43,205 nt of DNA from Candidatus Hemicellulosilyticus sp. P3 (lineage in GTDB: Bacteria; Bacteroidota; Bacteroidia; Bacteroidales; P3), in contig LPNH01000018.1 in NCBI GenBank assembly GCA_001543385.1, forward strand, positions 1-43,205. The letters run 5' to 3'. The position numbers were made by a program, and so were the translations under genes. This document shows positions 148 to 40,355 of the stretch, piece by piece (within the stretch, counting starts at the first letter, position 1; the number at the start of each line of letters is the position of its first letter). The notes beneath the pieces were generated by a model. That model made no database searches. It was not told the origin of the DNA and saw nothing but the letters and a program-made list of their open reading frames with translations.

Positions 148-975
148 CTATTCCAATTGCTTTCTATACACAGCGTCTAATGTCTGACCGTCTTTGTCTT
201 TCCATACGAGCCAACCGTTATTGCTACTGCCTATGCAGAAATCGGCTGCAGTACTGGGACTGGAGAAAGTCTTGTCAGACTCTAATTTCAACTTGTCACC
301 ATTGCTGATGGTATAATCCTTGAGAAGATTCTCACGCTTCTCCTTCCATGTAAACGATGGGACTGACGATTTGGCGATAATGCTACCCTTTAAGACAGTG
401 AATCCGTTGGCATCATAGAAACCTCTGGCATCACAACCACGTCCCTTTGTATAGAACAGATGTTCTTCCTTTGGCTTTGCTATATCAAAGATATTACAAC
501 CAATAAAGGATGTGAGGAACTTCACATCTTCAAAGAAACCCTCCATATCATCCTTCCTGTACTCAGGTAGATTGGGAGTCTTTGGCGTTTGCTTGTTCTC
601 ATTCAGAACGAAAGTGTTGGATACCTTTGCCTCTGCGATTGCCCGATGCTCTAAGTATTGCACATCTGCCTTTGTCATAGCAGCGTCTTTAGAAATAAAA
701 AGCAATGCCTTTTGCCAAAATGCTTTCTTGCTATCGTGGTCTTTCACACGTTCACGGAAATTCTCCGTCTCACCAATGTAAGCCTTTGGTTTTGTTGCCT
801 CATCCTCACCCAATAAGATATAAAATGCTGGTGTCTGCAATTCCTGTCGCTCATTCAGGATAGAGAGATTTGAACGAGGAATCACATACATCTGGCAAAT
901 CTTATTGCTAATGAACACATACTGAGTCCCTTTCGGATCTCCGTCTATCAAATATGTTGTTACTGTTTTACCCAT
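148..975 (-). CDS. GIY-YIG nuclease-like protein with C-terminal DUF4357
   Basis: The protein has 275 residues. A GIY-YIG fold is visible at about residues 50-112: the first strand reads FYILL (51-55) in place of GIY, the second has AYIG (65-68), an Arg-containing helix follows (ENFRERV, 71-77), and a Glu in YLEHRAI (E109) sits where the family carries its metal-binding Glu. The C-terminal 80 residues look like DUF4357, with the characteristic S.S.AA..C.G.S.NGW..W...DG.TLD pattern. GIY-YIG domains cut DNA in homing enzymes, repair nucleases and some restriction enzymes; GIY-YIG plus DUF4357 proteins occur often in bacteria and their target is not established. The gene starts 9 bases after the 1227-residue gene ends and is the last complete gene of the type III restriction operon. 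Nuclease activity is inferred; the role in the operon is unknown. Confidence 0.8.
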   Translation of the reverse strand: MGKTVTTYLIDGDPKGTQYVFISNKICQMYVIPRSNLSILNERQELQTPAFYILLGEDEATKPKAYIGETENFRERVKDHDSKKAFWQKALLFISKDAAMTKADVQYLEHRAIAEAKVSNTFVLNENKQTPKTPNLPEYRKDDMEGFFEDVKFLTSFIGCNIFDIAKPKEEHLFYTKGRGCDARGFYDANGFTVLKGSIIAKSSVPSFTWKEKRENLLKDYTISNGDKLKLESDKTFSSPSTAADFCIGSSNNGWLVWKDKDGQTLDAVYRKQLE

Positions 976-984
976 AAATCTATT

Positions 985-3900
985 TTAATTTGTTAAATCT
1001 AGAAATATAGCCCTATTATCTTCTTTTTCTGCCATTTGTTGGTATTCTTTAATCAGATTGTCAAAGATTCGAGTTAAACGTGGGGAACGAAGGCGGGCTT
1101 TATCTCTATATTTTGTGAATGTTTCCACATGATTTCGTTCAATTGATCCTCCTTCAAAATAGGCCCGTGAAGTCATTCCTCTTCGATTGCTTATAGCGCA
1201 TCTTATTTCTGTATCTACGTTGTCGTCATTAAAATATTCAACAAAACGACATAATATATCTGAAGGATAGTCTTCGATCTCTCTAAAATTACCAAGTATC
1301 CGACCAACTATCATTGAAAGAATGTGTGTTCGGTGGCATTGTTCTGCTTGCTGCTTTAACTCTTCAAAATAATTCGATAAGGCCTTCTCGTCAACTTTTC
1401 CTGAAAGATCTGAGCAAGGTACTTCATGATAATGAAAGATAAAATTAAATGCGAGTTGTGCAATTCCTGCTCGAAAGTCTTTTTCTGCATCGTCTTTAGG
1501 TACTTCCTCTTCGTGTCCTTCATCTGCGGGATAAGCCAGAGAAAACAATTCCATTAACAATGAAGGATTCTGATTTATCTCGTGAACAAGATGAATGTTA
1601 TGTGTATTCATGTTATGGCGTAAATGGTCAAAGATAAATAGTTCCATTTGAAGTATTAAATTCCTTTGCTTTATGTCCTTTGGCAAAGAAACCGTTTTGA
1701 GAATTTCCGCTACCATATATGACTCATTCCTAAGAATGTCCCATTTACCTTTATATTGCATTTCACATAATAATTCTATTTTAATTACATCTGAAATTAT
1801 GTTAGAGCTTCTGTTAAATGTTATAATCCTAAGTGTATCACCATATCTTCCAACATAGCATAATTTTCTTATTATGTTTTCAATCTCTGTTTCTGGAAAT
1901 ATTGATACTGTTACCTTACTCCAATAATCCTTATCAATGTCAGAAGATGATGCTTTCGCTATCTCAGATAAGTTTTTCTGATATCCTGGTGCAGATAATA
2001 AAATAGAAATATGCTTTTCAGAGACAGCTTTTAATTCCTCAATTATAGGAATATATGCCGATTCCCCTTTTTCGTAAAAAAAAGTGCAGAAATATTGCTT
2101 TACAAAGACCTCGTCCAAATCTCCGTTACAGAATTTCCTGTATATTTCTTTTCTTATATCTGTTCCATATAAATCAAAAAGTGCATTAGCAATACCTTCT
2201 TTATACTTTACTTTTTTTTCAAATTCCCAAACAGCATCAAAGCCTTTCTGTAGGATAATATTGTTTATTACTTCTGCCCTTACATTGCGAGTTTCTTTAG
2301 TCTTTTCAACATACTCCTTGTCATAGTTCAGAAAATCAGGTTCTTTAATAAACAAGTCCGAAAAGAGATGTTTATTTTTAATAATGATATCATCAGATTC
2401 TATATCGGCTAATAATTTCTGATATGGCAGTAATTCTTGTTCAGCCAAAGCCCATGCTGTCCTTTTGTATTGTAGGTGGTGATTAATTTTTTTTCGTAAG
2501 TTCTCTACAACGATTTCATTTCCCTTTATTATTTCTTTATGCTCATTAATTGCGTCCAACAACATAGCGCGACAACATCTCATATTTTTGTTGAATGACA
2601 AGTCGAGTATGTCTTTTATTTCATCAATAGAAAAATCAGATACATCTATTAAGAGTTTTGCTATAGCTATCACATTGGCTTGAGGGACAAGAGGTGCATG
2701 GCGTGGAGATTCTTTTTTTTCACGCATACGCCATCTGAAGTGTATATTTGGCTGAAAAACTCTATCCTCAAGTCCTTTTAATATTATAATACATAAATTT
2801 GCCACCACCTTACGATGCTTCACTATAAGGCTTTTTAAAACGTCTAGACGGTACTCAAAAGGTGCATAAGTCTGAGGCAATATAAATCGATAAATATGTG
2901 ATAAGGTATTAATCGGTTTATTTGAATAGTTACTATCATTAGGATAAGAACAAAGATGCATCAAAATGTCTGTTGTATTATACAGATATTGTTCGTCCCA
3001 TGATATTGCCTCTAATGCAAATAATAACTCTGCATAATAAATATCAGACCCGATGATACTAAACTCTTTGTGCTTTATTTCCATTAATTGGCTCAAAAGT
3101 ATAGAGCCATGCTCTATGTCATTTTGTATGAACTTCACAAAGGACATAGGAGACGCTTCCGCCAGCCATCGTAGATTATGACGATGTGTCAGATAACGTT
3201 TTAAATCAAACTCAATAAATTTCTTTTCAATAAGATTATCAACCCATTCTGTGTTGTTTAGAATGCGTCCTTTTACTATCGCAAGTAATGTAAGTCCTTG
3301 AAAAACGCCTTCTTTTATATTCCCAGAAAACGCTTGTTTGTTTTGCCACCAGAACAAACTGCCAGCATTCATTTTTTCTTCTGCATCTGGATCATCATCT
3401 TGAAGTACCCACTCTACCACTTCTCCAAACTTATCTAATTGAGGTTGGGCAACATAGTTAATCAATTGCGACATTAACTCAAAGGGGGATTTAACCTTCC
3501 ATATTTTCCCAATACGTATTAATGGCGCTTCATCAACAAAAAGCAAAGGAGTGACTAATTCAATAAAATCAGCATATTCATTCCCTGACATCAATTTAAT
3601 CATTTCTTTATCATCCGACCAGTCTTCATTCCATTCTCCAAGTAATAAGGCAGGGATAATTACACGAATGTTCTCTGGTGTTTGCCAGGCAGGCGGATTG
3701 TCAGCAAACCCTAAAAGATGTCTTAGTACATTAATATCACGTGCCGAATCTACAGCATAACTTTGAGCTTTCGCATCATCAATGCCACTTTCTGTAAGAG
3801 CTTTTATGAATCCTTCACGATTCAATTTGGGCAAAGAAATGGTACAATTATCATTGCGTCTATCAGATGGACTTATACACAAAATAACAGAATGACCATG

Positions 3901-4668
3901 AGACACCACATAATGAGCATTTTCTTGAATATCGGTAATAAAAATCATTCCATTACTAATCTCTGTCATCTCTTTGTAGGCATCGTCGTTTGTTACTACA
4001 ATAGAACGTTCTGCAAGCGAGTTGCTTTCACTAATGATAGAAGCTACGGAGAAAGCGATTGCTTCTTTCACAGAAATAGCCTCAATATAAAGAACACTTG
4101 GAGAATAACAGCATTCTATAACTTTTTGTCTTTCATCTTCTCGTCCTGTAAGTAATATGTTTGTATTCAACTTTACATTAGGACCAATAGCCCATCGTTC
4201 CCAGTATATATGACAATTTGTTGTACCTCTATTCTTTAATTGCTCAATCTGGGCTTTAATAATATTGGTTTCTTTTAATATCTCTTTAGCAGTAAGACAC
4301 CCTTCCTCCAGTTTCAATGCCATTATCTGATGTTCATAATTCAATATAAACTGATGACATTCTTCATCATTCAAAATTTCTTCTGACCATAATCTTAACA
4401 ATTCATTCTCTCTTGGATGACGACCAACAGGTTTATGCGCAATAAAGTCTTTTAATTGGAGAAGATATTTTGTCATTTGTTCCCCAACAGCTTTCCGCGT
4501 TTCGGGATGATTTGTCCATCTGTCAACTGCACGTTTAAAACATAATTCCAGCTTTTTCTCTACTGATTTGTGATTCTTAAACCAATCATTTGGTACAAGA
4601 TTGGACACATATGAAATAACAAAACTTAATGCAATATCCAATGGTGTCATTGTTGTATTATTAGTCAT
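985..4668 (-). CDS. Uncharacterised 1227-residue restriction-operon protein, possibly STAND-like
   Basis: I do not recognise a named family. Residues 1-150 are mostly helical and charged. Residues about 165-330 resemble the core of a STAND/AAA-type ATPase by layout: a strand ending ILLTGREDERQKV, a second strand with a helix where a P-loop would be expected (LYIEAISVKEAIAFSVASI) but no GxxxxGK[ST], then strands SIVVTND, MIFITDI and SVILCIS, and a lid-like helical part with SLPKLNREGFIKAL. The segment NPPAW...IIPALLLGEW...IGKIWKVKSPFEL (about 325-415) recalls large uncharacterised bacterial proteins. The remaining 800 residues look like an alpha-helical repeat scaffold with no transmembrane segment or signal peptide. 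The gene starts 6 bases after mod and ends 9 bases before the GIY-YIG gene. It is visibly more AT-rich than mod and res, which suggests separate acquisition. A sensor or regulator of the restriction system is a guess. Confidence 0.7.
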   Translation of the reverse strand: MTNNTTMTPLDIALSFVISYVSNLVPNDWFKNHKSVEKKLELCFKRAVDRWTNHPETRKAVGEQMTKYLLQLKDFIAHKPVGRHPRENELLRLWSEEILNDEECHQFILNYEHQIMALKLEEGCLTAKEILKETNIIKAQIEQLKNRGTTNCHIYWERWAIGPNVKLNTNILLTGREDERQKVIECCYSPSVLYIEAISVKEAIAFSVASIISESNSLAERSIVVTNDDAYKEMTEISNGMIFITDIQENAHYVVSHGHSVILCISPSDRRNDNCTISLPKLNREGFIKALTESGIDDAKAQSYAVDSARDINVLRHLLGFADNPPAWQTPENIRVIIPALLLGEWNEDWSDDKEMIKLMSGNEYADFIELVTPLLFVDEAPLIRIGKIWKVKSPFELMSQLINYVAQPQLDKFGEVVEWVLQDDDPDAEEKMNAGSLFWWQNKQAFSGNIKEGVFQGLTLLAIVKGRILNNTEWVDNLIEKKFIEFDLKRYLTHRHNLRWLAEASPMSFVKFIQNDIEHGSILLSQLMEIKHKEFSIIGSDIYYAELLFALEAISWDEQYLYNTTDILMHLCSYPNDSNYSNKPINTLSHIYRFILPQTYAPFEYRLDVLKSLIVKHRKVVANLCIIILKGLEDRVFQPNIHFRWRMREKKESPRHAPLVPQANVIAIAKLLIDVSDFSIDEIKDILDLSFNKNMRCCRAMLLDAINEHKEIIKGNEIVVENLRKKINHHLQYKRTAWALAEQELLPYQKLLADIESDDIIIKNKHLFSDLFIKEPDFLNYDKEYVEKTKETRNVRAEVINNIILQKGFDAVWEFEKKVKYKEGIANALFDLYGTDIRKEIYRKFCNGDLDEVFVKQYFCTFFYEKGESAYIPIIEELKAVSEKHISILLSAPGYQKNLSEIAKASSSDIDKDYWSKVTVSIFPETEIENIIRKLCYVGRYGDTLRIITFNRSSNIISDVIKIELLCEMQYKGKWDILRNESYMVAEILKTVSLPKDIKQRNLILQMELFIFDHLRHNMNTHNIHLVHEINQNPSLLMELFSLAYPADEGHEEEVPKDDAEKDFRAGIAQLAFNFIFHYHEVPCSDLSGKVDEKALSNYFEELKQQAEQCHRTHILSMIVGRILGNFREIEDYPSDILCRFVEYFNDDNVDTEIRCAISNRRGMTSRAYFEGGSIERNHVETFTKYRDKARLRSPRLTRIFDNLIKEYQQMAEKEDNRAIFLDLTN

Positions 4669-4674
4669 GTGTTA

Positions 4675-6645
4675 TTAGAATGCGAAGAACTTGTCTTGCA
4701 TCTTGTTTTTGAGATTGAATTTCTTGGTGGTGTCGAGAGCTCGCTCTATGCAGATAAACTTGGTGTCTGGATGGGACATGAAGTAATCTACGGTCTCATC
4801 ATAGAGGTTAGAGTCAACGGTGATGTAAGCTGTCTTAATACCATCTGTGGCTTTGTACACCTTGTTCTTGGCAAACTGTGGCTGCGACTCTAACTTATAA
4901 GTGAGCATAAAGCCCTGCTTAATCAGAATCTCTGTTATCAGTTCGTCTTCATTGAAAGCAAGGGTAAGCTGCTGTTCTTTTTGAGCGACATACTCCTGGA
5001 ACAATGCAAGATTCTCTTCTTCGTTCTTATCTGGGTCAGGAGCAAAATCCACACGGGGGAAGCTGGATTTACTCAGCGTGAATACCTTGAAACCAAGTTG
5101 GTCTAACTGTTGTTGGTCTTCTGGAGTAATGAGTTTCCCTTCATAAGAAGCTTTTATCTTATCATATACAGCCTTGTTACGAGCGATAGTTTGATCACTT
5201 ATCTTCTTATATCCATGTTTGGCTGCAGCATGTTTTGCAGAGATTGCTTCAGGAAACTGTACAAGGATGAACTTTCGTTTTCCTCCGACATCTTGTAGAT
5301 TGCAGTTGACCACAGCGTGTCCAGTTGTTCCTGAACCTGCAAAAAAATCAAGAATTATACAATCATCACAATTGTTCATCCGAATTAGATACTCTATGAG
5401 TTTGGTCGGTTTTGGATAATCAAAACCATATATACCCAAAGCACTTAATTCGCTAGTAGCACTTTGTGTGCCACCAAAATTCTGAAGAAGAGAGATAACA
5501 TGGCTTTTAAACCCTCTATCCTTGACACATTCTATTGTTCCAGATTCTAGAAGAACAAATGTGGTGTCTTGTCCCTTAGTGTCTTTTACTGGTTTCCAAT
5601 TGTTCTCTTCATTCATAAATGCATCAAATTGTCCACGTGCTGCCCAACCACTTTCTATCTCAACATCGTTTACAACCTTATAATTATCGACAACAATGTC
5701 TTCGCTAAAATGTGGCCATTGATTCTGTCTTGCAGGAATTACACCACTCTTAAATTCACATGGGAAACCTGCTTTCAATATAACCTTCTGGACTGGATTT
5801 TTAGGCCCATTCTTAACGATTGTATTTCTAATCTGTGCATTATTGAGTTTACTCTTGTCCGTAATATTGGGATCGACTATATGTGGAAAATCAAACTCTG
5901 ATGCGTTTTTGGCATAGAGCAAAATATACTCGTGACAAGTCTTTATCTTTGCTTGATTATCGAAATTACCATCAGTTCCCCAAACAAATTGGGCAATAAA
6001 GTTGCTTGGAAAGAATACCTCATCACAGATTTTCTTCAAATGCGTGACTTCTTTATCATTGATGGAAATAAAAATAATACCATCCGATGTTAGCAAAGAA
6101 CGGGCTTGGAGCAAACGTGCATATATATCGCTCATCCAAACGCTATGTATACGTCCTTCTGGCACAGTTTCTGTATCTACAACCACACCATTTTCAGTTA
6201 TTCCGCTCTCTTCCCAATACTGTTTTTTGTCTTGGGCAAAATTGTCATTATAAGCTGTCAGGGCATCGGCATTGTATGGAGGATCAATATATATACACTT
6301 TATTCTTCCACGATAACTGGAAGAAAGTATTTTGAGAACTTCGAGGTTTTCACCTTCAATGATGATGTTGTCAGTCGTGCCAGCATTAACGCTACGCTCT
6401 GCATCGTAATGTAACGTTGCGCGTGTAGGCGTAAAAGCATTACGCTTAGCCGCAGACTTGCCAAACCAACGGAACTCATATCGTTCAGTCTCTTCAACAC
6501 TATCTGGATTTACAGCTTTCTTGACTTCGTTGATATCAAGATGGCCTTCCTGTGTGAACCAGTCAGGGAACAGTTCGCGGAGGGTGTTCAGACGTTCCTC
6601 ATTCATGTCGGGAGTCAACGTTATGTGGTCTTTATATGTTTCCAT
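4675..6645 (-). CDS. mod: Type III restriction-modification DNA methyltransferase (Mod)
   Basis: This 656-residue N6-adenine DNA methyltransferase is the modification and specificity subunit of a type III system; it transfers methyl from S-adenosylmethionine to adenine in an asymmetric site. Catalytic motif IV is DPPYN (121-125) and the AdoMet-binding motif I is FAGSGT (435-440). This order, catalytic motif before AdoMet motif, is the beta-class arrangement of Mod proteins. The long segment between them (about 200-420) should hold the target recognition domain. An N-terminal alpha-helical part and a C-terminal part (about 500-656) flank the core, as in other Mod subunits. The gene overlaps the 3' end of res by 14 bases, so translation is probably coupled. 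No simple-sequence repeat of the phase-variable mod type is visible. Confidence 0.95.
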   Translation of the reverse strand: METYKDHITLTPDMNEERLNTLRELFPDWFTQEGHLDINEVKKAVNPDSVEETERYEFRWFGKSAAKRNAFTPTRATLHYDAERSVNAGTTDNIIIEGENLEVLKILSSSYRGRIKCIYIDPPYNADALTAYNDNFAQDKKQYWEESGITENGVVVDTETVPEGRIHSVWMSDIYARLLQARSLLTSDGIIFISINDKEVTHLKKICDEVFFPSNFIAQFVWGTDGNFDNQAKIKTCHEYILLYAKNASEFDFPHIVDPNITDKSKLNNAQIRNTIVKNGPKNPVQKVILKAGFPCEFKSGVIPARQNQWPHFSEDIVVDNYKVVNDVEIESGWAARGQFDAFMNEENNWKPVKDTKGQDTTFVLLESGTIECVKDRGFKSHVISLLQNFGGTQSATSELSALGIYGFDYPKPTKLIEYLIRMNNCDDCIILDFFAGSGTTGHAVVNCNLQDVGGKRKFILVQFPEAISAKHAAAKHGYKKISDQTIARNKAVYDKIKASYEGKLITPEDQQQLDQLGFKVFTLSKSSFPRVDFAPDPDKNEEENLALFQEYVAQKEQQLTLAFNEDELITEILIKQGFMLTYKLESQPQFAKNKVYKATDGIKTAYITVDSNLYDETVDYFMSHPDTKFICIERALDTTKKFNLKNKMQDKFFAF

Positions 6646-9352
6646 TTACTTGATTATTTATTGTTTGTTCGGCTTGCGCCATAAATGTTGAAAATTCACG
6701 TATTGGAGCTTTATAAACAGCTTCGATGCCGAGAGAGCAAAAATGCTTTTTGGCAAATTCCATACGAGCTATTTCATGGGGAGTAAGAGCTTTCTTGTCG
6801 TTAATATCATTGGTGCCTTTAATTTCAACAACAAAATAATATTCTTGTTGATCTTGATTATTCCGTAAGGAAACACGCTTCAACACGACACCAAAGTCTG
6901 GCTCGTAGTTACCGATAGGTGTTGGAATCTTGTACCATGATGGAAATTTCAAGAAACACACTACCTTTTGATTTTCATTTTTGTCTGCATCAACAGCAAA
7001 GTCGCGTTCAAGTCCACTGTCATAGAGCGTTTTATCCCAAACACCATGATTAGGAGTTGAGACGTAATTGTCACAAGCATCCTTGGTGAAGTCTGCAAAG
7101 TCGAAAGGATACACCTCATCAGTTGGATTATATTTCACGCATCTGACTAATTCGTCAAGCTGCACCTGTTTGATTTTGAACGCTGCTGTTTCTAGAAAAA
7201 CTGGAGGATTCTTCAGATACTCCTTTTGGGTCTCAATATCCCGAACGATACGCATTATGGAATTATAACATAGTCCAGTCTTTTCGCTAAGGTCTTCTAC
7301 CAAATCCTGTGGAGAATAATGTCCTTTTAGGTTGCGATCTTCCGAACCTATGTATTCCCGTTGCGACAAATCTTCAATGTCACCAACACGATAGCTGGAT
7401 ACTTCAGCTTTGTATTCAGTAATAGAGATCGTATTCAACTCCTCTATGCTACGACGTATGATAGCATCCTCATCGAAGCTGACGCGATAGGTTGTCTTCT
7501 TGGCAATTGTATTCCAGAATCTGCGGAACACACTCTGAATGTTTTCGTCTTTATTTAATTTGAACGTTACGCGGTTCTGATGCTTGCCTTTATGAGTATG
7601 TTTAAGCTTGGCGCCAGCACCAGACTTGCCAAATGCCTTCTCGTTTTCGTTCTGATAACTGCGTGCAAAAGTCTCGTAGGTCTCATTTGGAACTACTGTG
7701 AGTTGATTAATGACTTCATCATCTGGAGTTCCCTCTGCATCATAAACACGTTCGCCTTGCTGGTTTACACAGATACGAAGACCTCGGCCAATTTCCTGGC
7801 GTTTCTTATTCTCAGAATAACTTTCGTTGAGAGTGGCAATACCGAACACATTTGGATTGTCCCATCCTACACCAAGCGCAGAATGAGAGAACACGAATTC
7901 TATTGTACTACTAAATGATAGGAGCTTCTGCTTGTTATGCAAAATTTCGTCGTATATTTCCTTGTTGCTCTGATTACTCTTCTCATTATCTGTATATTCA
8001 CCATTTGTAGTTTTGGCAAAATAGTACCCCTGAACAGCTGTCACTTGATCTTCCAAAGGAGTCTGTCCATTGTGAAACTCAGCATATACTGTTTTGTACT
8101 GCTGTTCGAAAATTTTCTTGATGACTGGGTTGTCAGGGCTCATATAGTTAGCTACCTTGTCAATGAAGATGAGTGAAAGATTCTTGATGCCTTTAGGCTT
8201 TAAACGTTCTTGGTTTTGGAAGTGACGGCGAATGAGCCATTCCAACTGCAATGCCCAAACCTGTTCCTTGTTTGCCGACGATGCTCCCTCTTCGATGCTG
8301 GTACCATTGGTGAACTCTACAACCCATTTACGAGTACTCAATTTCTTATAAATGCGACTGATCGTAAAGTCAGAATAGGTGTCGTTACCAGATTTCTCGG
8401 CAAGGTTATCGCCTTTCTTTAAAAGGTTGGAATCTTTGAAGACAAAGTTCTCTTTGGATTTATTGTATTTCCAGAACTTCAATTTCACCTTTGGCTCTGT
8501 CTTGGTTTCCTGCACTTCGCTGATTTCAATTTTCAGAGTTGCTTCATCGTTTTTCTCAGTCACAGTAAGCACCTCAATTTTCTTGACCAGCCCCAAACGA
8601 TAGCTCTCACTTGGGGTCAGTTGATAGAGCATATTAACCTTCACAGCATGCGTGGCAGAATATCGGAACTTGAACAATGGAGAAAGCTTTGAAAGCCAAA
8701 GTTGTGAATTTTCCGTGTCCATACCCTCTTGCGGCTCGTCCATAAAAACGATGGGATGAGTGCGAGCGATAGCCTCAATGAAGGGCTTGTTGTTGAACAG
8801 GTCTTCACGCACTTCTTGATTCAGAATCTTGTCTTCAGAGTTGAACGAGGCCATCGTCATTATCATGATCTGTGGTGTCTCAGCAGTAATGAAGTCACGA
8901 AGGTCGTTCAACTTGGAACTATCATAGACAAAAGCATTAGGCGTAAAACCGTATTTGTCTTCCAATTGCCCTTTGAAATTCTCAAACGTATCTATGGCTC
9001 CCTGACGGATGGGAATTGACGGAACAAGAACGATGAACTTTGTTAGCCCATATTCTTTGTACAGCTCGTATGCTGTCTGTAGATAGGTCAAGGTCTTGCC
9101 CGTACCCGTCTCCATTTCTATACATGCATTCCTGGTTTCTTGAAGATTGGATTGTAAAGGATCCACTCCGTTTTCCGCTGCAATCTTGTTTATGTTTGCC
9201 ATCAATGCCTCCGAAGACAACGAGCAGTAGTTGGCCCGAATGTCCTCATCCGTTGCATTATCGTATGTATTTTTTTCCATTCCACGAAAGACCTCCACCA
9301 CACTTTGTATGGCAGTTCTTTGGTGTTCTGGAGTTTCTAATTTAAATATCAT
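6632..9352 (-). CDS. res: Type III restriction enzyme, helicase/nuclease subunit (Res)
   Basis: The 906-residue superfamily 2 helicase plus nuclease works with Mod to cut unmodified DNA. From the chosen start, Walker A is ETGTGKT (81-87), motif II is DEPQ (205-208), motif III is the YSAT stretch, and motif VI is in QEIGRGLRI. The C-terminal PD-(D/E)xK nuclease is visible as PD (818-819) and ExK (E843, K845 in VVEIKG). The frame is open upstream to 9445, but the extra 31 residues are low-quality sequence, while the ATG at 9352 gives the family-typical beginning (MIFKLETPEHQRTAI, the Q-motif-like region) and has AGGA upstream. The gene follows an XRE regulator by 137 bases and overlaps mod. All catalytic motifs are present, so it is probably active. 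Confidence 0.95.
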   Translation of the reverse strand: MIFKLETPEHQRTAIQSVVEVFRGMEKNTYDNATDEDIRANYCSLSSEALMANINKIAAENGVDPLQSNLQETRNACIEMETGTGKTLTYLQTAYELYKEYGLTKFIVLVPSIPIRQGAIDTFENFKGQLEDKYGFTPNAFVYDSSKLNDLRDFITAETPQIMIMTMASFNSEDKILNQEVREDLFNNKPFIEAIARTHPIVFMDEPQEGMDTENSQLWLSKLSPLFKFRYSATHAVKVNMLYQLTPSESYRLGLVKKIEVLTVTEKNDEATLKIEISEVQETKTEPKVKLKFWKYNKSKENFVFKDSNLLKKGDNLAEKSGNDTYSDFTISRIYKKLSTRKWVVEFTNGTSIEEGASSANKEQVWALQLEWLIRRHFQNQERLKPKGIKNLSLIFIDKVANYMSPDNPVIKKIFEQQYKTVYAEFHNGQTPLEDQVTAVQGYYFAKTTNGEYTDNEKSNQSNKEIYDEILHNKQKLLSFSSTIEFVFSHSALGVGWDNPNVFGIATLNESYSENKKRQEIGRGLRICVNQQGERVYDAEGTPDDEVINQLTVVPNETYETFARSYQNENEKAFGKSGAGAKLKHTHKGKHQNRVTFKLNKDENIQSVFRRFWNTIAKKTTYRVSFDEDAIIRRSIEELNTISITEYKAEVSSYRVGDIEDLSQREYIGSEDRNLKGHYSPQDLVEDLSEKTGLCYNSIMRIVRDIETQKEYLKNPPVFLETAAFKIKQVQLDELVRCVKYNPTDEVYPFDFADFTKDACDNYVSTPNHGVWDKTLYDSGLERDFAVDADKNENQKVVCFLKFPSWYKIPTPIGNYEPDFGVVLKRVSLRNNQDQQEYYFVVEIKGTNDINDKKALTPHEIARMEFAKKHFCSLGIEAVYKAPIREFSTFMAQAEQTINNQVNGNI

Positions 9353-9489
9353 TATTTTACTTTTATTCCTTTTGCTACTATCTTCGAAGACTTTTTGTTG
9401 CCCTTTCTTGGGCGGTAGGGCCTTCAGCAGTGCACATGCCATCACAGGTTATCTACGCTCAGCCTATGCTACGCTAATGCGCACCGTTG

Positions 9490-9699
9490 CTACATTCTCA
9501 GCAGTTCTTGTATATCCACCTTCAAACATTTGGCAATTTCCATCAAGTTTTCCAAGTTTGGCTGCGCACTGTTAGTACACCATTTAGATACCGTGGCTTG
9601 GTCAACACCGATTTGCTCAGCTAACCACTTGTTGGTGCGCTTCTTCTCTGCAAGCACTACTTTCAGTCGGTTTAAATCTTTACCTTCCATGTTATTCAT
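9490..9699 (-). CDS. XRE-family HTH regulator, first gene of restriction operon
   Basis: The protein has 69 residues, almost all one helix-turn-helix domain of the XRE/Cro type. LAEQIGVDQATVSKWCTN holds the two key helices and is followed by the usual helix NLENLMEIAKCLKV. Small single-domain XRE proteins ahead of restriction genes often act as controllers that delay nuclease expression until methylation is established; that role here is inferred from position. It starts 13 or so bases from the predicted transcript start, and res follows after 137 bases. A second in-frame Met (9690) could also be the start. It could equally be a transcriptional repressor of its own operon. Confidence 0.85.
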   Translation of the reverse strand: MNNMEGKDLNRLKVVLAEKKRTNKWLAEQIGVDQATVSKWCTNSAQPNLENLMEIAKCLKVDIQELLRM

Positions 9700-9718
9700 T
9701 ATTACATAATACTGGGTA

Positions 9719-9726
9719 CAAAGATA
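9719..9726 (-). promoter_or_regulatory. -7 box for the restriction operon
   Basis: Read on the minus strand this is TATCTTTG, a perfect match to the Bacteroidota -7 consensus TAnnTTTG, ending 19 bases upstream of the XRE start. No clear TTTG is seen at the -33 position. Confidence 0.6.
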
Positions 9727-10014
9727 GCGTTTTTTCGGCAGAAATCATTATGTTTTGATAAAAATATGAGCAGAGGGACAAAAATATTTGTCTTTTAACA
9801 AATTCTCGCCTCAAATTATCAATACCATCATTATGCCATAACACAATTGATGTGTCTTTTATGAGACAAATTTTATAGTCGTAAAATTTACAGCCATAAA
9901 ATTACATAAAGAGGTCCTTTAAAGATGTACTCATCGATTGTTAATCGGCAAAATTGCAGATTTCTATAAAAATGTCCCCCCAAAAGAGTGTCTAAGCAGT
10001 TTTTTAATAAAATG
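9727..10014. other. AT-rich divergent intergenic region between restriction operon and hipBA
   Basis: The interval between the XRE gene and hipB is about 366 bases, very AT-rich, and holds no open frame worth calling. It should contain the operators of two divergent HTH regulators (the XRE protein and the HipB-like antitoxin). Several AT-rich half-palindromes around TTTTAT and ATAAAA occur between 9860 and 9910, but I could not assign a convincing operator by eye. Confidence 0.4.
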
Positions 10015-10046
10015 TTTGTTATATTAAACATTTTTATTTATCTTTG
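10015..10046 (+). promoter_or_regulatory. Bacteroidota promoter of hipBA-like operon
   Basis: A TTTG (-33) at 10015-10018 is followed by 20 bases and TATCTTTG (-7) at 10039-10046. This is a full match to the Bacteroidota sigma-ABfr consensus. The ATG of the hipB-like gene is 20 bases downstream. Confidence 0.8.
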
Positions 10047-10065
10047 CACCCAATAAGATACAATT

Positions 10066-10365
10066 ATGGGTAAGAATACATTTGGTAAAACGATGCCAAG
10101 GGCATTGAGCCAGAACCTGAAGATTATGGGCGAGCAAATCATGTTGGCCCGCAAGCGCAGGCATTTGTCTATGCAGGATATTGCAGACAGGGCTACTGTG
10201 ACACGTCTGACTGTCTCAAAGGTGGAACATGGCGACCCAACGGTTTCCATGGGTATCTATGCGCGTGTACTCTTTGCACTTAATCTGGAAAAGGATATCA
10301 CCTTGTTAGCTGCCGACGATGCTCTTGGCAGACAACTTCAGGATGCAGAATTACTCAGAAAATGA
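10066..10365 (+). CDS. HipB-like XRE-family antitoxin
   Basis: The 99-residue protein has a central XRE helix-turn-helix at about residues 20-75 (ARKRRHLSMQDIADRATV, then RLTVSKVEHGDPTVS). In HipBA systems the small HTH protein represses the operon and neutralises the HipA kinase. Its stop codon overlaps the hipA-like start by 4 bases (ATGA), the usual translationally coupled arrangement. A full promoter lies directly upstream, so this gene is the first of a two-gene operon. Confidence 0.9.
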   Translation: MGKNTFGKTMPRALSQNLKIMGEQIMLARKRRHLSMQDIADRATVTRLTVSKVEHGDPTVSMGIYARVLFALNLEKDITLLAADDALGRQLQDAELLRK

Positions 10366-11621
10366 AAAGGATTACAGTTTACGCAGATTTTGACTTCCTC
10401 TCTGCCCCACAGGAGATAGGGACATTAGGCTACGAACATGTTCGTGGCAAAGACCATTTTGTCTTTGAGTATTCGCGCCAGTGGTTGAAACAGCATGGTG
10501 GCATTCTGCTGAGCGGTGACTTGATGAATGTCCCCTCGTTGCAGCATCCTCGTGGCAATGATAATGTGTTCGGGTTCGTCAAGGATTCCTTCCCCGATCG
10601 CTGGGGACGGTTGTTGCTTGACCGCAGAGAGCGACTGACTGCTCAACAGGAAGGTAGGCCGAAACGTATGCTCACTAATTACGACTACCTTATAGGTATC
10701 GAGGACTTTACACGTATGGGAGGCATACGTTACAAAGAGGAAGAAGGCGATGACTATATCAATGCGAGTGCAAAATATCTTGTCCCCCCGATTGAGAGTC
10801 TTCGCGCCCTATGCGATGCTTGCCATGAGATTGAGTTGGCAGAGGAACGCAACGAATTGCCAGAGCAACGCTGGCTCGACCAGTTGATTGACCCGGGAAC
10901 CTCGCTTGGTGGTGCTCGTCCTAAGGCTAACGTGGTTGATACAGACGGAAAACTATATGTAGCCAAGTTCCCATCTAAGAAGGACTTGGATAATACCGAG
11001 CTTATTGAGCACTTCTCGCATCAACTTGCGGCCAAGGCTGGCATCAACGTGGCAAAGACGCGCACCATCAAGATTTCAAAAGACCGTGACCTGCTTCTTT
11101 CTGAACGCTTCGATAGAACAGCAGAAAGCCGTCGCATCCATTTTGCTTCCGCTATGTCGTTGCTTGGTTTAGACGATGGTGCTGGCAGCAGCACAGGTAA
11201 CGGCTATCTTGACATCGTTGATTTCATTCTTCGTGGGTGTACAGATGTGCGCCAGAATCTCCGCGAACTCTATCGCAGAGTGGCATTTAACATCATGTAT
11301 GGCAATACCGATGACCACTTCCGTAATCATGGTTTCCTGCTTACCCCGAAAGGTTGGACACTCTCTCCTGCATACGACATCAATCCAGGAGCAAAGTTAC
11401 ATCAATGCTTGCTCATAGACTCATACACAGAAGAATCGGACATCAACGCCTTACTCTCTGCAAGCGAGAGCTACATGCTTGAACGCCAAGAAGCATCAGA
11501 AATTATTGAGGAGGTTCGTGCGGCCATCAAAGACTGGCGCAAAACCGCAACAGAACTGCAAATACCCCTCAAACTGCTTGAATCATACTCAATGCGATGG
11601 GATGATCGTAAGCTCAAGTAA
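10362..11621 (+). CDS. hipA: HipA-like Ser/Thr kinase toxin
   Basis: At 419 residues this is a full-length HipA-family kinase with both N-terminal subdomain and kinase core. Visible motifs are the Gly-rich ATP loop SLGGARPK (181-188), the lysine strand YVAKFPS (199-205), the catalytic loop NTDDHFRNH (315-323) and the metal-binding YDINP (338-342, the DFG equivalent). E. coli HipA phosphorylates glutamyl-tRNA synthetase and causes persistence; other members have other targets, so the substrate here is not known. The gene overlaps its antitoxin gene. Being next to a restriction operon is common for toxin-antitoxin modules in defence islands. No truncation or missing catalytic residue was seen. 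Confidence 0.93.
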   Translation: MKRITVYADFDFLSAPQEIGTLGYEHVRGKDHFVFEYSRQWLKQHGGILLSGDLMNVPSLQHPRGNDNVFGFVKDSFPDRWGRLLLDRRERLTAQQEGRPKRMLTNYDYLIGIEDFTRMGGIRYKEEEGDDYINASAKYLVPPIESLRALCDACHEIELAEERNELPEQRWLDQLIDPGTSLGGARPKANVVDTDGKLYVAKFPSKKDLDNTELIEHFSHQLAAKAGINVAKTRTIKISKDRDLLLSERFDRTAESRRIHFASAMSLLGLDDGAGSSTGNGYLDIVDFILRGCTDVRQNLRELYRRVAFNIMYGNTDDHFRNHGFLLTPKGWTLSPAYDINPGAKLHQCLLIDSYTEESDINALLSASESYMLERQEASEIIEEVRAAIKDWRKTATELQIPLKLLESYSMRWDDRKLK

Positions 11622-11641
11622 GAAATGAACACAAAGGTAAT

Positions 11642-11668
11642 AAAACGCCAGACAAAATCTGACGTTTT
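11642..11668. terminator. Hairpin between convergent hipA and luxS
   Basis: Two 11-base arms (11642-11652 and 11658-11668) pair with one mismatch around a 5-base loop. The arms end in AAAA and TTTT, so the hairpin could stop transcription from both sides. It lies between the 3' ends of hipA and luxS. Confidence 0.5.
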
Positions 11669-11760
11669 CAGGTAAGTGGTTGCTTTGTATCAAACATGAA
11701 AACCACTGCAGATTCAACAAGTGATTGCTACAAACAGATCCGTTGTCTGACAAGCGGCAC

Positions 11761-12255
11761 TTATGCGTCGGCAAACACCTTCCCGTCGTTGAGGGTAACC
11801 TGCAGCTTGGTGTACTCGCAGTGGAAATCGTGCTCCAGACGGTCCAGATAGCGGGCACACTCCCATTTGCACATCGGCAGGTCGTGAAGCAGGTAGTTGC
11901 CGCACGTCTCAGGACGTGTGGCTGGCACCTCGGTCTGCGTGAGAATCCACCGCAGGCACTCGACGGTCAGACGCCGCATATCCTCCACAGAGTAGGCTCC
12001 CGTCATGATGACATACATGCCCGTGAGGCAACCCATAGGGCCTACATACACCACGTCATCCTTCGCCTCGGAATTGCGGAACCATGTGGCCATCAGGTGC
12101 TCTAAACTGTGCATGGCTGCAGGAGCCACAGCGGGCTCTTGGTTCGGCTCGGTGATACGCAGGTCGAAGGTGGTGAAACCCTTGTCCTCACGCGAAACAT
12201 AGATACCCGGCTTCAGATGGGTGTGGTCGATAGTGAAACTCTGTATAACTTCCAT
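11761..12255 (-). CDS. luxS: S-ribosylhomocysteine lyase LuxS
   Basis: LuxS (164 residues) converts S-ribosylhomocysteine to homocysteine and DPD, the precursor of autoinducer 2. The metal ligands are visible as HSLEH (H49, H53) and the Cys in ETCGNY (C118). The catalytic Cys is in GPMGCLTG (C76). Length fits the family. The substrate comes from the Pfs nucleosidase, also encoded in this window at 39.6-40.2 kb, so both steps of this S-adenosylhomocysteine recycling route are present, though not linked. A full Bacteroidota promoter lies just upstream. Confidence 0.97.
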   Translation of the reverse strand: MEVIQSFTIDHTHLKPGIYVSREDKGFTTFDLRITEPNQEPAVAPAAMHSLEHLMATWFRNSEAKDDVVYVGPMGCLTGMYVIMTGAYSVEDMRRLTVECLRWILTQTEVPATRPETCGNYLLHDLPMCKWECARYLDRLEHDFHCEYTKLQVTLNDGKVFADA

Positions 12256-12298
12256 GATGCTGTTTTTGATGAAACGCCTATCCTCATGCTTTTCGCTG

Positions 12299-12330
12299 CA
12301 AAACTACTGCTTTTCCCGTAAACTGTCAAA
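12299..12330 (-). promoter_or_regulatory. luxS promoter
   Basis: On the minus strand TTTG occupies 12330-12327, then 20 bases, then TAGTTTTG at 12306-12299. Both boxes and the spacing fit the Bacteroidota consensus. The -7 box ends 43 bases upstream of the luxS ATG. Confidence 0.8.
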
Positions 12331-12361
12331 CTATTTTAGCAGGGAACCCGCCATACGGCTG

Positions 12362-12405
12362 ATTGTTGATGGGCGACATCGTGTTCGATGTCGCCCATCA
12401 ACAAT
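12362..12405. terminator. Perfect 20-bp inverted repeat, 4-base loop
   Basis: Arms 12362-12381 and 12386-12405 are perfect inverted repeats. The hairpin lies just downstream of the beta-helix protein gene and upstream of the luxS promoter, so it is positioned to end the upstream minus-strand transcript. No T-run follows. Confidence 0.55.
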
Positions 12406-12435
12406 GGACATTTCACATGGCACGGAACCTGTCGG

Positions 12436-14433
12436 TTATCTGATTTTGAAGTGCTTCTTGCCGTTCTGGATATAAACGCCGCGGAAAGTGCCGGGCACTT
12501 CGGTGCCGAGATATCGACCGTCGATGGTGTAGACGCGGTCGTCGCGGACAGCAGGATCTGCTTCAACGTCATCGATGCCCGTGACACTGCCGCTAAGCGT
12601 CACCGAAGAGCCTCCACTGACGGTAGCGTCAAGATAACAGTTATCCTCGAAGATGCCGGTGCCGCCGCTTACCGTAACTCCGCTTTTGAGTGTGGGAGTT
12701 GAAGAGGTCGAAACCACCATTCCGGACGAACCGCCGCCACCGGGATTACCACCGCCACCGGGGTTACCTCCACCTCCGGGACCGTCACCCGATAAGTCTT
12801 TACCGACGGGATTGCCACCACCGTTGCCGCTAACCGCTGGCGTGTAGAAAGCAATGGTTTCACTTCCGTATGCAAGCGAGTACCAGGTGTTGCCGCTCAC
12901 TGACGAGGTCTGATAGCAGGTCTGGTTTTGGACGCTTCCCTGCTCCAGGCCGCCGATGGCGATAATGGTTCCACCATTGATGTAGAGTTGCTTGTTCTCC
13001 TCGGTGTTGGCGTCGATGGCCACCTCGGACGAACCGGATCCGACAGCGTAGACCAAGCCGCCGTTGATGTAGCAGTTGCCGTTGGCATCAATGCCGTCAT
13101 TGTTGGTGGCACGCGAATAGACATAGCCACCGGTGATGACCATGTCCTGTGCTGAGTTGATGCCGTCGTCATAAGTGTTGACATAGACTTCACCGCCGGT
13201 GATGTCCAGCGTGTTCTTGCTTTCGACACCCTCGGCGTTGGTGCCGCTGGTGGTCACCTTCACATAGCCGCCGCTGATGACCAGACCGCCGCTGTAAGTG
13301 TAGCTGTTGCCGCTCTGCGTCTTCACGCCAGCCTTGATACCCTTGGGCGACGAATAGTAGTCGCTGCTCACGTTGTCGGTGTTGCCCGTATAGTTAATAT
13401 TCTCCGTAGTGCCATTGTTATAATAGAGACCACCGGTGGTGACCGCCGTTATGCTGCCGTCGGCAATGGTCATCACCCCGTCGCATTTCATGCCCTTTCC
13501 ACCCGAGCCGGTGGCAGTGAGTGTGAGCGTGCCTCCACCGATGTTCATGTTGCCGTCGCAGCTGAGGCCGCAAGCGGCCTTAGTTTCCAGGTCGTCACTG
13601 TCCCACTCGCCGTTGCCGGAGGTGCTAACGGTGATGTCGCCCCCCGTGACATTCATGTCGCCGTCACACTTGATGCCTTTTGCAGCAGTGGCGGTGCAGA
13701 TAACGTTGATAGTGCCGCCGCTGATATAGATATTGCCCGAATCCTCGTCCTCATGGTCAGTCGTTTCACCGGTGGTGGTGTCGCCGTCGAGGTCGCACTG
13801 GATGCCGTCGTCACCCGTGCCACTGATATTGATGGTGCCGCTTTCCATAAGGAAATACTCGCTGCACGAGATACCGTCGCCCACGGCGGATGTCACATTG
13901 ATGGTGGCGTTTTTCAGGCTGATGTATTCGCCCGCCTTGATGCCATGCTTCACATTACCCACGACGTTCAGCGTGCCCTGCTGCTTGAACTCGGCGTGGC
14001 CTTTCACGTAAAGACAGCCCTTCTGTGAGCCGCTGGCCGCATCGACAAGGGTGTTGGTGGTGCCAGTGACAACCTTCACGTTGATACGCTTGCCGTTCTG
14101 GATATGCACGGCGGCGCCACTGTAGACCGGGGTGGCATTGGTCAAGGTGAGGCCGTTCAACTCGATGGTAGCCTTGTAGGAACCCGACATATAAAACTCG
14201 CCGTCGGTCGAGGTGCCGCTGAGGTTGTAGGTGATTTCGCCGGCGAGGGAGTCGCTTTGCGCGATGGAGACGTGCGCCCCCTCCTGGGTAACGGTCAGAT
14301 ACTGCGCCACATTGTCGGCCACGCTGACCGTCGCCGTCGCGCCGCTGTAGACGACCTCAACGGTGTTGTCGCTCTGGGCCGTCGCCACAGCCGATGCAAT
14401 GCAAAGCACTGCAAAAAGAATACTTTTTCTCAT
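12436..14433 (-). CDS. Exported beta-helix carbohydrate-binding-like protein (Cthe_2159/DUF4353 type)
   Basis: The protein has 665 residues with a clear signal peptide (MRKSILFAVLCIASAVATAQ). The body (about 70-520) is built of repeated Asn/Gly-rich rungs (G-I-[KQS]-[CS]-[DE]..., then NISGGTI or NVTGGDI-like turns). This is the right-handed beta-helix pattern of the Cthe_2159 family; the founding member binds polygalacturonate. A Gly/Pro-rich linker (GGGNPGGGG repeats, about 550-570) precedes a second small part. The C-terminus VYTIDGRYLG...GVYIQNGKKHFKIR resembles the type IX secretion sorting domain of Bacteroidota, so surface delivery is likely. An in-frame Met at 14436 or 14469 gives a longer start without a better signal. 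Carbohydrate binding is inferred from the family. Confidence 0.8.
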   Translation of the reverse strand: MRKSILFAVLCIASAVATAQSDNTVEVVYSGATATVSVADNVAQYLTVTQEGAHVSIAQSDSLAGEITYNLSGTSTDGEFYMSGSYKATIELNGLTLTNATPVYSGAAVHIQNGKRINVKVVTGTTNTLVDAASGSQKGCLYVKGHAEFKQQGTLNVVGNVKHGIKAGEYISLKNATINVTSAVGDGISCSEYFLMESGTINISGTGDDGIQCDLDGDTTTGETTDHEDEDSGNIYISGGTINVICTATAAKGIKCDGDMNVTGGDITVSTSGNGEWDSDDLETKAACGLSCDGNMNIGGGTLTLTATGSGGKGMKCDGVMTIADGSITAVTTGGLYYNNGTTENINYTGNTDNVSSDYYSSPKGIKAGVKTQSGNSYTYSGGLVISGGYVKVTTSGTNAEGVESKNTLDITGGEVYVNTYDDGINSAQDMVITGGYVYSRATNNDGIDANGNCYINGGLVYAVGSGSSEVAIDANTEENKQLYINGGTIIAIGGLEQGSVQNQTCYQTSSVSGNTWYSLAYGSETIAFYTPAVSGNGGGNPVGKDLSGDGPGGGGNPGGGGNPGGGGSSGMVVSTSSTPTLKSGVTVSGGTGIFEDNCYLDATVSGGSSVTLSGSVTGIDDVEADPAVRDDRVYTIDGRYLGTEVPGTFRGVYIQNGKKHFKIR

Positions 14434-40278: not shown

Positions 40279-40355
40279 GGCCCCGTAGTTCAGCTGAATA
40301 GAACGTCGGATTCCGGTTCCGAAAGTCGTGGGTTTGAATCCCGCCGGGGTCACCA
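40279..40355 (+). tRNA. tRNA-Arg (anticodon CCG)
   Basis: A 77-base cloverleaf is complete. The acceptor stem GGCCCCG pairs with CGGGGTC (one G-T pair), with discriminator A and encoded CCA at 40353-40355. The anticodon stem TCGGA/TCCGA encloses the loop TTCCGGT, so the anticodon is CCG (40313-40315), which reads CGG (Arg). The T-loop region has GGTTTGAATCCC. A 12-base hairpin follows at 40367-40393. Confidence 0.93.

Follow-up and report, generated by a model that had tools for sequence, protein, structure and literature searches.

A type III restriction operon of the Bacteroidales with a probable slot for exchangeable defence genes behind mod

Contig LPNH01000018.1 of Candidatus Hemicellulosilyticus sp. 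P3 (Bacteroidota, Bacteroidales; GenBank assembly GCA_001543385.1) was analysed over positions 1 to 43,205, a stretch called the window here. Close to its first base lies a type III restriction-modification operon in which two further genes follow mod, one for a protein of 1227 residues (the large gene) and one for a GIY-YIG/DUF4357 protein. On balance we favour the reading that this operon has a slot behind mod, occupied at present by two defence genes that are probably exchangeable: one for a predicted NLR-like sensor that lacks a nucleotide site and one for a probable GIY-YIG nuclease. New are the probable use of such type III operons as docking sites and a receptor-like family that has no nucleotide site; a literature search, with subscription papers outside it, returned no description of this gene set or of a cargo slot behind mod.

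The operon and the genes behind mod

The features of the locus, in order of transcription, are:

9490-9699, minus: XRE-family regulator, 69 residues (Pfam HTH_26 and HTH_3, both above cut-off)
6632-9445, minus: res, type III restriction subunit with helicase and nuclease (Pfam ResIII and RE_endonuc; PADLOC REase_III, E 1e-160)
4675-6645, minus: mod, type III adenine methyltransferase (Pfam N6_N4_Mtase; PADLOC MTase_III, E 8e-129)
4675-4772, minus: mod 3' end, at which cargo is proposed to be exchanged (similarity to locus L003 stops here; mod-end stubs in L003, L058 and L192)
985-4668, minus: first cargo gene, the large gene; STAND-like protein of 1227 residues without Walker A, predicted NLR-like sensor (models, fold matches, motif scan)
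148-975, minus: second cargo gene; GIY-YIG/DUF4357 protein, probable nuclease (DUF4357 domain, PDC-S14 match, invariant residues)
1-78, minus: further open reading frame (ORF), 26 codons seen before the contig stops; perhaps a third cargo gene (sequence)

A first-pass annotation of this DNA had described a type III pair with two closely spaced extra genes, one large and one GIY-YIG/DUF4357. Both are confirmed, as are the gene order on the minus strand, the 14-base overlap of mod and res, and the gaps of 6 bases from mod to the large gene and 9 bases from there to the GIY-YIG gene. The ORF tool starts res at GTG 9445, and ATG 9352 (906 residues, MIFKLETPEHQ...) agrees better with relatives; with that start the XRE-res gap is 137 bases, which gives the regulator a looser coupling to the operon than the other genes have. 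The XRE protein of a sister operon (L155), also ahead of res, is 68% identical. By their domains and motifs, a DEPQ box (helicase) and PD...EIK (PD-(D/E)xK-type endonuclease) in Res, DPPY and FAGSG in Mod, res and mod make up a type III restriction-modification operon that looks complete. The contig ends at base 1 of the window, and the ORF that starts at 78 runs off it on the operon strand; the operon may therefore extend beyond its visible part.

Type III loci were surveyed at 40 places, mostly the best-scoring, 20 from matches in the family (85 of 190 genomes) and 20 from matches in the order (69 of 393). Eleven were dropped, having no complete mod/res pair on one strand, and 29 pairs remain. 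Type III genes usually run mod-res, and 18 of the 29 pairs do. The window operon shares the domains and motifs of type III systems and differs from them in placing res before mod and in its trailing cargo. Res relatives at 51-69% identity define a class with this reversed order. Eleven such operons were fetched. In eight of them mod is followed by another gene in under 60 bases, the first gap being 2-18 bases; two break off where their contig stops, and in the last (L162) the next gene lies 342 bases off. With the window included, nine of the ten uncut operons carry cargo behind mod.

The cargo varies from operon to operon. Among other genes, it comprises an AAA_21 ATPase followed 70 bases on by DUF2971 in L057, a 236-residue protein and an AAA_21 ATPase in L154, HD-CE/HATPase and RhuM proteins in L155, a 151-residue and an SMC-like protein in L156, and a PD-Lambda-5_A-like protein with a gene read as Dam-like in L157. 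Neither the large gene nor the GIY-YIG gene is present in these sister operons. An all-against-all comparison of 16 cargo proteins gave a single weak cross match, between two AAA ATPases. PADLOC defence families are matched by five of ten scanned neighbour proteins (among them that of L162, 342 bases away), and the other five have no match. Since the genes at this position change from one sister operon to the next, a docking site for interchangeable antiviral genes is likely, rather than one fixed system. In the mod-before-res class (L061-L076, L168, L169 and L171) genes lie between mod and res in 13 of the 18 pairs, with a nearly identical set in L066, L067 and L073, and nothing lies in between in the other five.

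The mod 3' end as a border

The last 40 residues of Mod have a mean identity of 71% over 12 Mods of the class, against 17-22% for residues 251-400; conservation is not confined to the end, as residues 51-100 reach 78%. With the last 71 mod codons as query, matches were obtained in 3 of the 190 family genomes and 15 of the 393 order genomes, the window's genome and G100 being in both, hence in 16 genomes. Open frames of at least 456 codons are present in 14 of them, one of which (G288) is a res-mod deletion fusion. The remaining two, G085 and G492, have the mod end only and together with L003 make three stubs.

At L003 the stub is a 55-codon ORF before the large gene, its last 34 residues 82% identical to Mod 623-656. 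DNA similarity between the window and L003 extends over 149-4772 at 90%, unbroken across both cargo genes and reaching 98 bases into mod. The rest of the L003 genome has no complete Mod of the class, with weaker Mod matches only, at 45% or less over parts. The stub in L058 (G085) corresponds to Mod 605-656 at 54%; it follows a different Mod-like/helicase-like pair and directly precedes a gene read as an ATPase. In L192 (G492:C462, local 4948-7332) what is left is Res residues 31-70 on one side and Mod residues 617-656 on the other, and in place of the res-mod core there are two ORFs, one read as an ATPase and the other as an HNH-like protein. We infer that the three stubs may be scars of cassette exchange by recombination. 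Such exchange would have the mod 3' end as its border and, at one locus, the res 5' end as well.

Defence genes generally cluster, and the genes behind mod might be passers-by in a defence island that has no special border; the five mod-before-res pairs with nothing between their genes agree with this. Such a chance neighbourhood is highly improbable, given the 2-18 bases that separate mod from the first cargo gene in eight sister operons and the three stubs, each of which runs up to the stop codon of mod and there meets cargo genes.

Occurrence of the two cargo genes elsewhere

Relatives of the large gene are present in 4 of the 190 family genomes and in 7 of the 393 genomes of the order sample, the window counted in each and one of the seven marginal. 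A scan of genome contigs confirmed two relatives among 173 pattern matches, a viral scan confirmed none among 56, and a phage collection gave one partial match; 6 of 22 plasmid records with relatives were opened. The first-pass annotation had suggested testing whether mod, res and the GIY-YIG gene co-occur with homologues of the large gene. The outcome was negative: among 17 places compared by BLAST at which the large gene or a relative stands, the window alone has both mod and res, and L003 has its mod stub. Within the window's subgroup the large gene and the GIY-YIG gene are side by side in two of three loci (the window and L003, not L002), which counts in favour of a link between these two.

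Other company differs from locus to locus. A type IIG enzyme lies upstream of the large gene in L003 and AbiL-like genes lie near it in L002, and upstream of the relative in L007 are a helicase and a type IIG-like methyltransferase. In L013 a YhcG PDDEXK gene is 11 bases upstream, and split type IIG-like ORFs adjoin the relative in L026. In L008 (G046:C50, local 5995-13166) a SIR2/Dsr2-like gene follows 2 bases after the relative, and the two may be another sensor-effector pair. No listed same-strand gene lies within 200 bases of the relative in L010-L012, L015 and L023-L025, within reach of the records.

The GIY-YIG gene occurs at 26 places in 23 of the 190 family genomes. Eighteen of these were fetched, some on short contigs; the others are a short piece in G138, the place in the window itself, and matches in G094, G088, G066, G101, G051 and G081 that are weak or partial. 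None of the 18 has the large gene, or a match to the window's mod or res, among the nearest six listed ORFs in either direction. Read from sequence alone, the gene sits between type I HsdS and HsdR in L116 and adjoins methyltransferase or ATPase genes in L108, L109 and L110. GIY-YIG genes at 91-92% identity occur in three genomes without any large gene found.

Between the window and L003 the GIY-YIG protein has 7 changes in 275 residues, with a ratio of non-synonymous to synonymous divergence (dN/dS) of 0.013 and a synonymous divergence (dS) of 0.87; the large protein has 145 changes in 1227 residues, with dN/dS 0.20 and dS 0.28. The low ratios indicate that both genes are maintained by selection, while the difference in dS makes the two seem without a common history.

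These data bear on two ways of joining the genes more firmly. The four genes could be one system, as the first-pass annotation supposed, with an obligate back-up pair added to the type III enzyme; the large protein would sense failed restriction and activate the GIY-YIG protein to kill the cell. The 6- and 9-base spacing, the linkage of the pair in both the window and L003 and the strong purifying selection on the GIY-YIG gene are in its favour. We regard it as very doubtful and reject it as a fixed system, because the L003 pair stands behind a type IIG enzyme in a genome that has only a stub of a Mod of the class, the GIY-YIG gene occurs without the large gene in all 18 fetched places, and both cargo genes are missing from the sister operons, which hold other genes; the neighbourhoods of the large gene point the same way. 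Homologues of the extra genes mostly apart from type III genes, the outcome which that annotation had named as refuting, is what was found. Alternatively, the large gene and the GIY-YIG gene could by themselves constitute a defence system of two genes, a sensor and a nuclease, which was inserted whole behind mod in the window and behind the type IIG enzyme in L003. Their adjacency in two of the three subgroup loci and the DNA similarity continuous over both would fit this. It seems unlikely in view of the L002 large gene, which has no GIY-YIG gene, the closely similar GIY-YIG genes in three genomes where no large gene was found, and the threefold difference in dS. A slot with exchangeable contents remains the preferred reading, and the GIY-YIG protein would then be a nuclease that accompanies restriction loci and moves between them on its own, with no obligate tie to the large protein.

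In the Pfam scan of the 275-residue GIY-YIG/DUF4357 protein, DUF4357 is above cut-off and GIY-YIG slightly below it (20.5 versus 22.6 bits). PADLOC matches it over the full length to the phage defence candidate PDC-S14 (E 2e-83), with no difference seen. Conserved residues of GIY-YIG domains have catalytic roles. In an alignment of the window protein with 13 of the 18 fetched, Y52, Y66, G68, R76 and E109 are invariant in all 14 sequences, which makes an active nuclease plausible, and we consider the protein to be probably one.

The large protein and a proposed function

Structure models of the large protein (predicted local distance difference test, pLDDT, 85 and 90) and their fold matches predict a helical N-terminal domain, a unit like those of Apaf-1, CED-4 and Avs, and a helical solenoid of about 800 residues. 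The fold matches place in the model a nucleotide-binding domain plus the helical/winged-helix unit of the STAND/NB-ARC fold. A motif scan finds no Walker A motif in any of the 27 aligned family members. The 'ATPase-like' label of the first-pass annotation is thus apt for the STAND-like fold and not for the activity, and an ordinary nucleotide-binding ATPase is rejected. The protein is predicted to be an NLR-like sensor, folded like animal and plant immune receptors and lacking the nucleotide-binding site.

As a query, residues 1-135 match solely within the same family. Over the first 100 codons, dN/dS between the window and L003 is 0.89, against 0.05-0.48 elsewhere, a rough ratio as dS is low there. 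PDB sequence searches returned nothing for the large protein or the GIY-YIG protein; with the family profile, and with the WExG domain of distant relatives, all PDB matches had E 0.12 or worse and were mostly ribosomal proteins. From its conserved residues, our guess is that the WExG domain could be a degenerate PD-(D/E)xK fold. Matches of the large protein to MTHFR_C (E 0.003, below cut-off; in 3 of 20 relatives) and to XopV (13.9 bits, cut-off 220) are taken as chance. PADLOC has no family match for it at E 0.1, with hidden Markov models that may miss distant members.

Several known proteins resemble it in part. The repeat domain of Avs proteins recognises phage terminase or portal; from Avs and other bacterial NLR-like receptors (Avs3, Avs5) the window protein differs by its missing Walker A motif and PADLOC match. 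PMC12839542 describes inactive STAND proteins, BrxB/BrxF of BREX and those of MoxR-vWA systems, as proposed sensors. A STAND-type core without Walker motifs is common to both, and the likeness observed is one of fold and Walker loss; the window protein differs by its solenoid of about 800 residues, its separate N-terminal domain and its type III operon. PD-Lambda-4 protein A is matched weakly by distant relatives at corresponding positions (PDLC03991 by 6 of 20, PDLC03990 by 2 of 20; E 0.05 or less, best 2e-6) and not by the window protein itself. A P-loop is reported for PD-Lambda-4 in a table of PMC10952713, and the term 'pd-lambda-4' was not found in the main text of PMC9519451. A search for PD-Lambda-4_A came up empty in the window's genome and equally in 14 control genomes, so that it proves nothing.

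The company and fold of these genes suggest a role of the locus in phage defence. Res and Mod, with the motifs given above, would restrict unmodified phage DNA under the XRE regulator; type III enzymes act as a Mod-Res complex whose cleavage of unmodified sites depends on ATP. The large protein could form a back-up layer against phage that escapes restriction: its solenoid would bind a phage product, it would switch with no need of ATP, in line with a proposal made for the inactive STAND proteins in BREX, and its output would be set by the N-terminal domain, in whose place relatives have others. A broader view, put forward tentatively, is that operons of this type III class are docking sites whose conserved ends, that of res at 5' and that of mod at 3', act as recombination handles for whole defence cassettes. 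The cassette here would then carry a cross-phylum receptor of NLR architecture that has lost nucleotide binding, reports infection via its solenoid and acts through exchangeable N-terminal domains or neighbouring effectors.

If the slot is real, it would explain how restriction operons acquire extra defence genes: these would be cargo swapped at a fixed border, and no new fixed system would be involved. Close packing of the genes in such an operon would then be weak evidence for a single function, and the mod 3' end could serve as bait for listing new defence genes. The large-protein family would make it testable whether an NLR-type receptor works without a nucleotide switch.

Beside the XRE gene and divergent from it lies a HipB/HipA-like pair (10066-11621, plus), an HTH protein followed by one with HipA_C/Couple_hipA. 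An ORF of 164 residues (11761-12255, minus) is read as LuxS from sequence alone, and a tRNA-Arg (CCG) at 40279-40355 (plus) is the sole tRNA gene found in the window.
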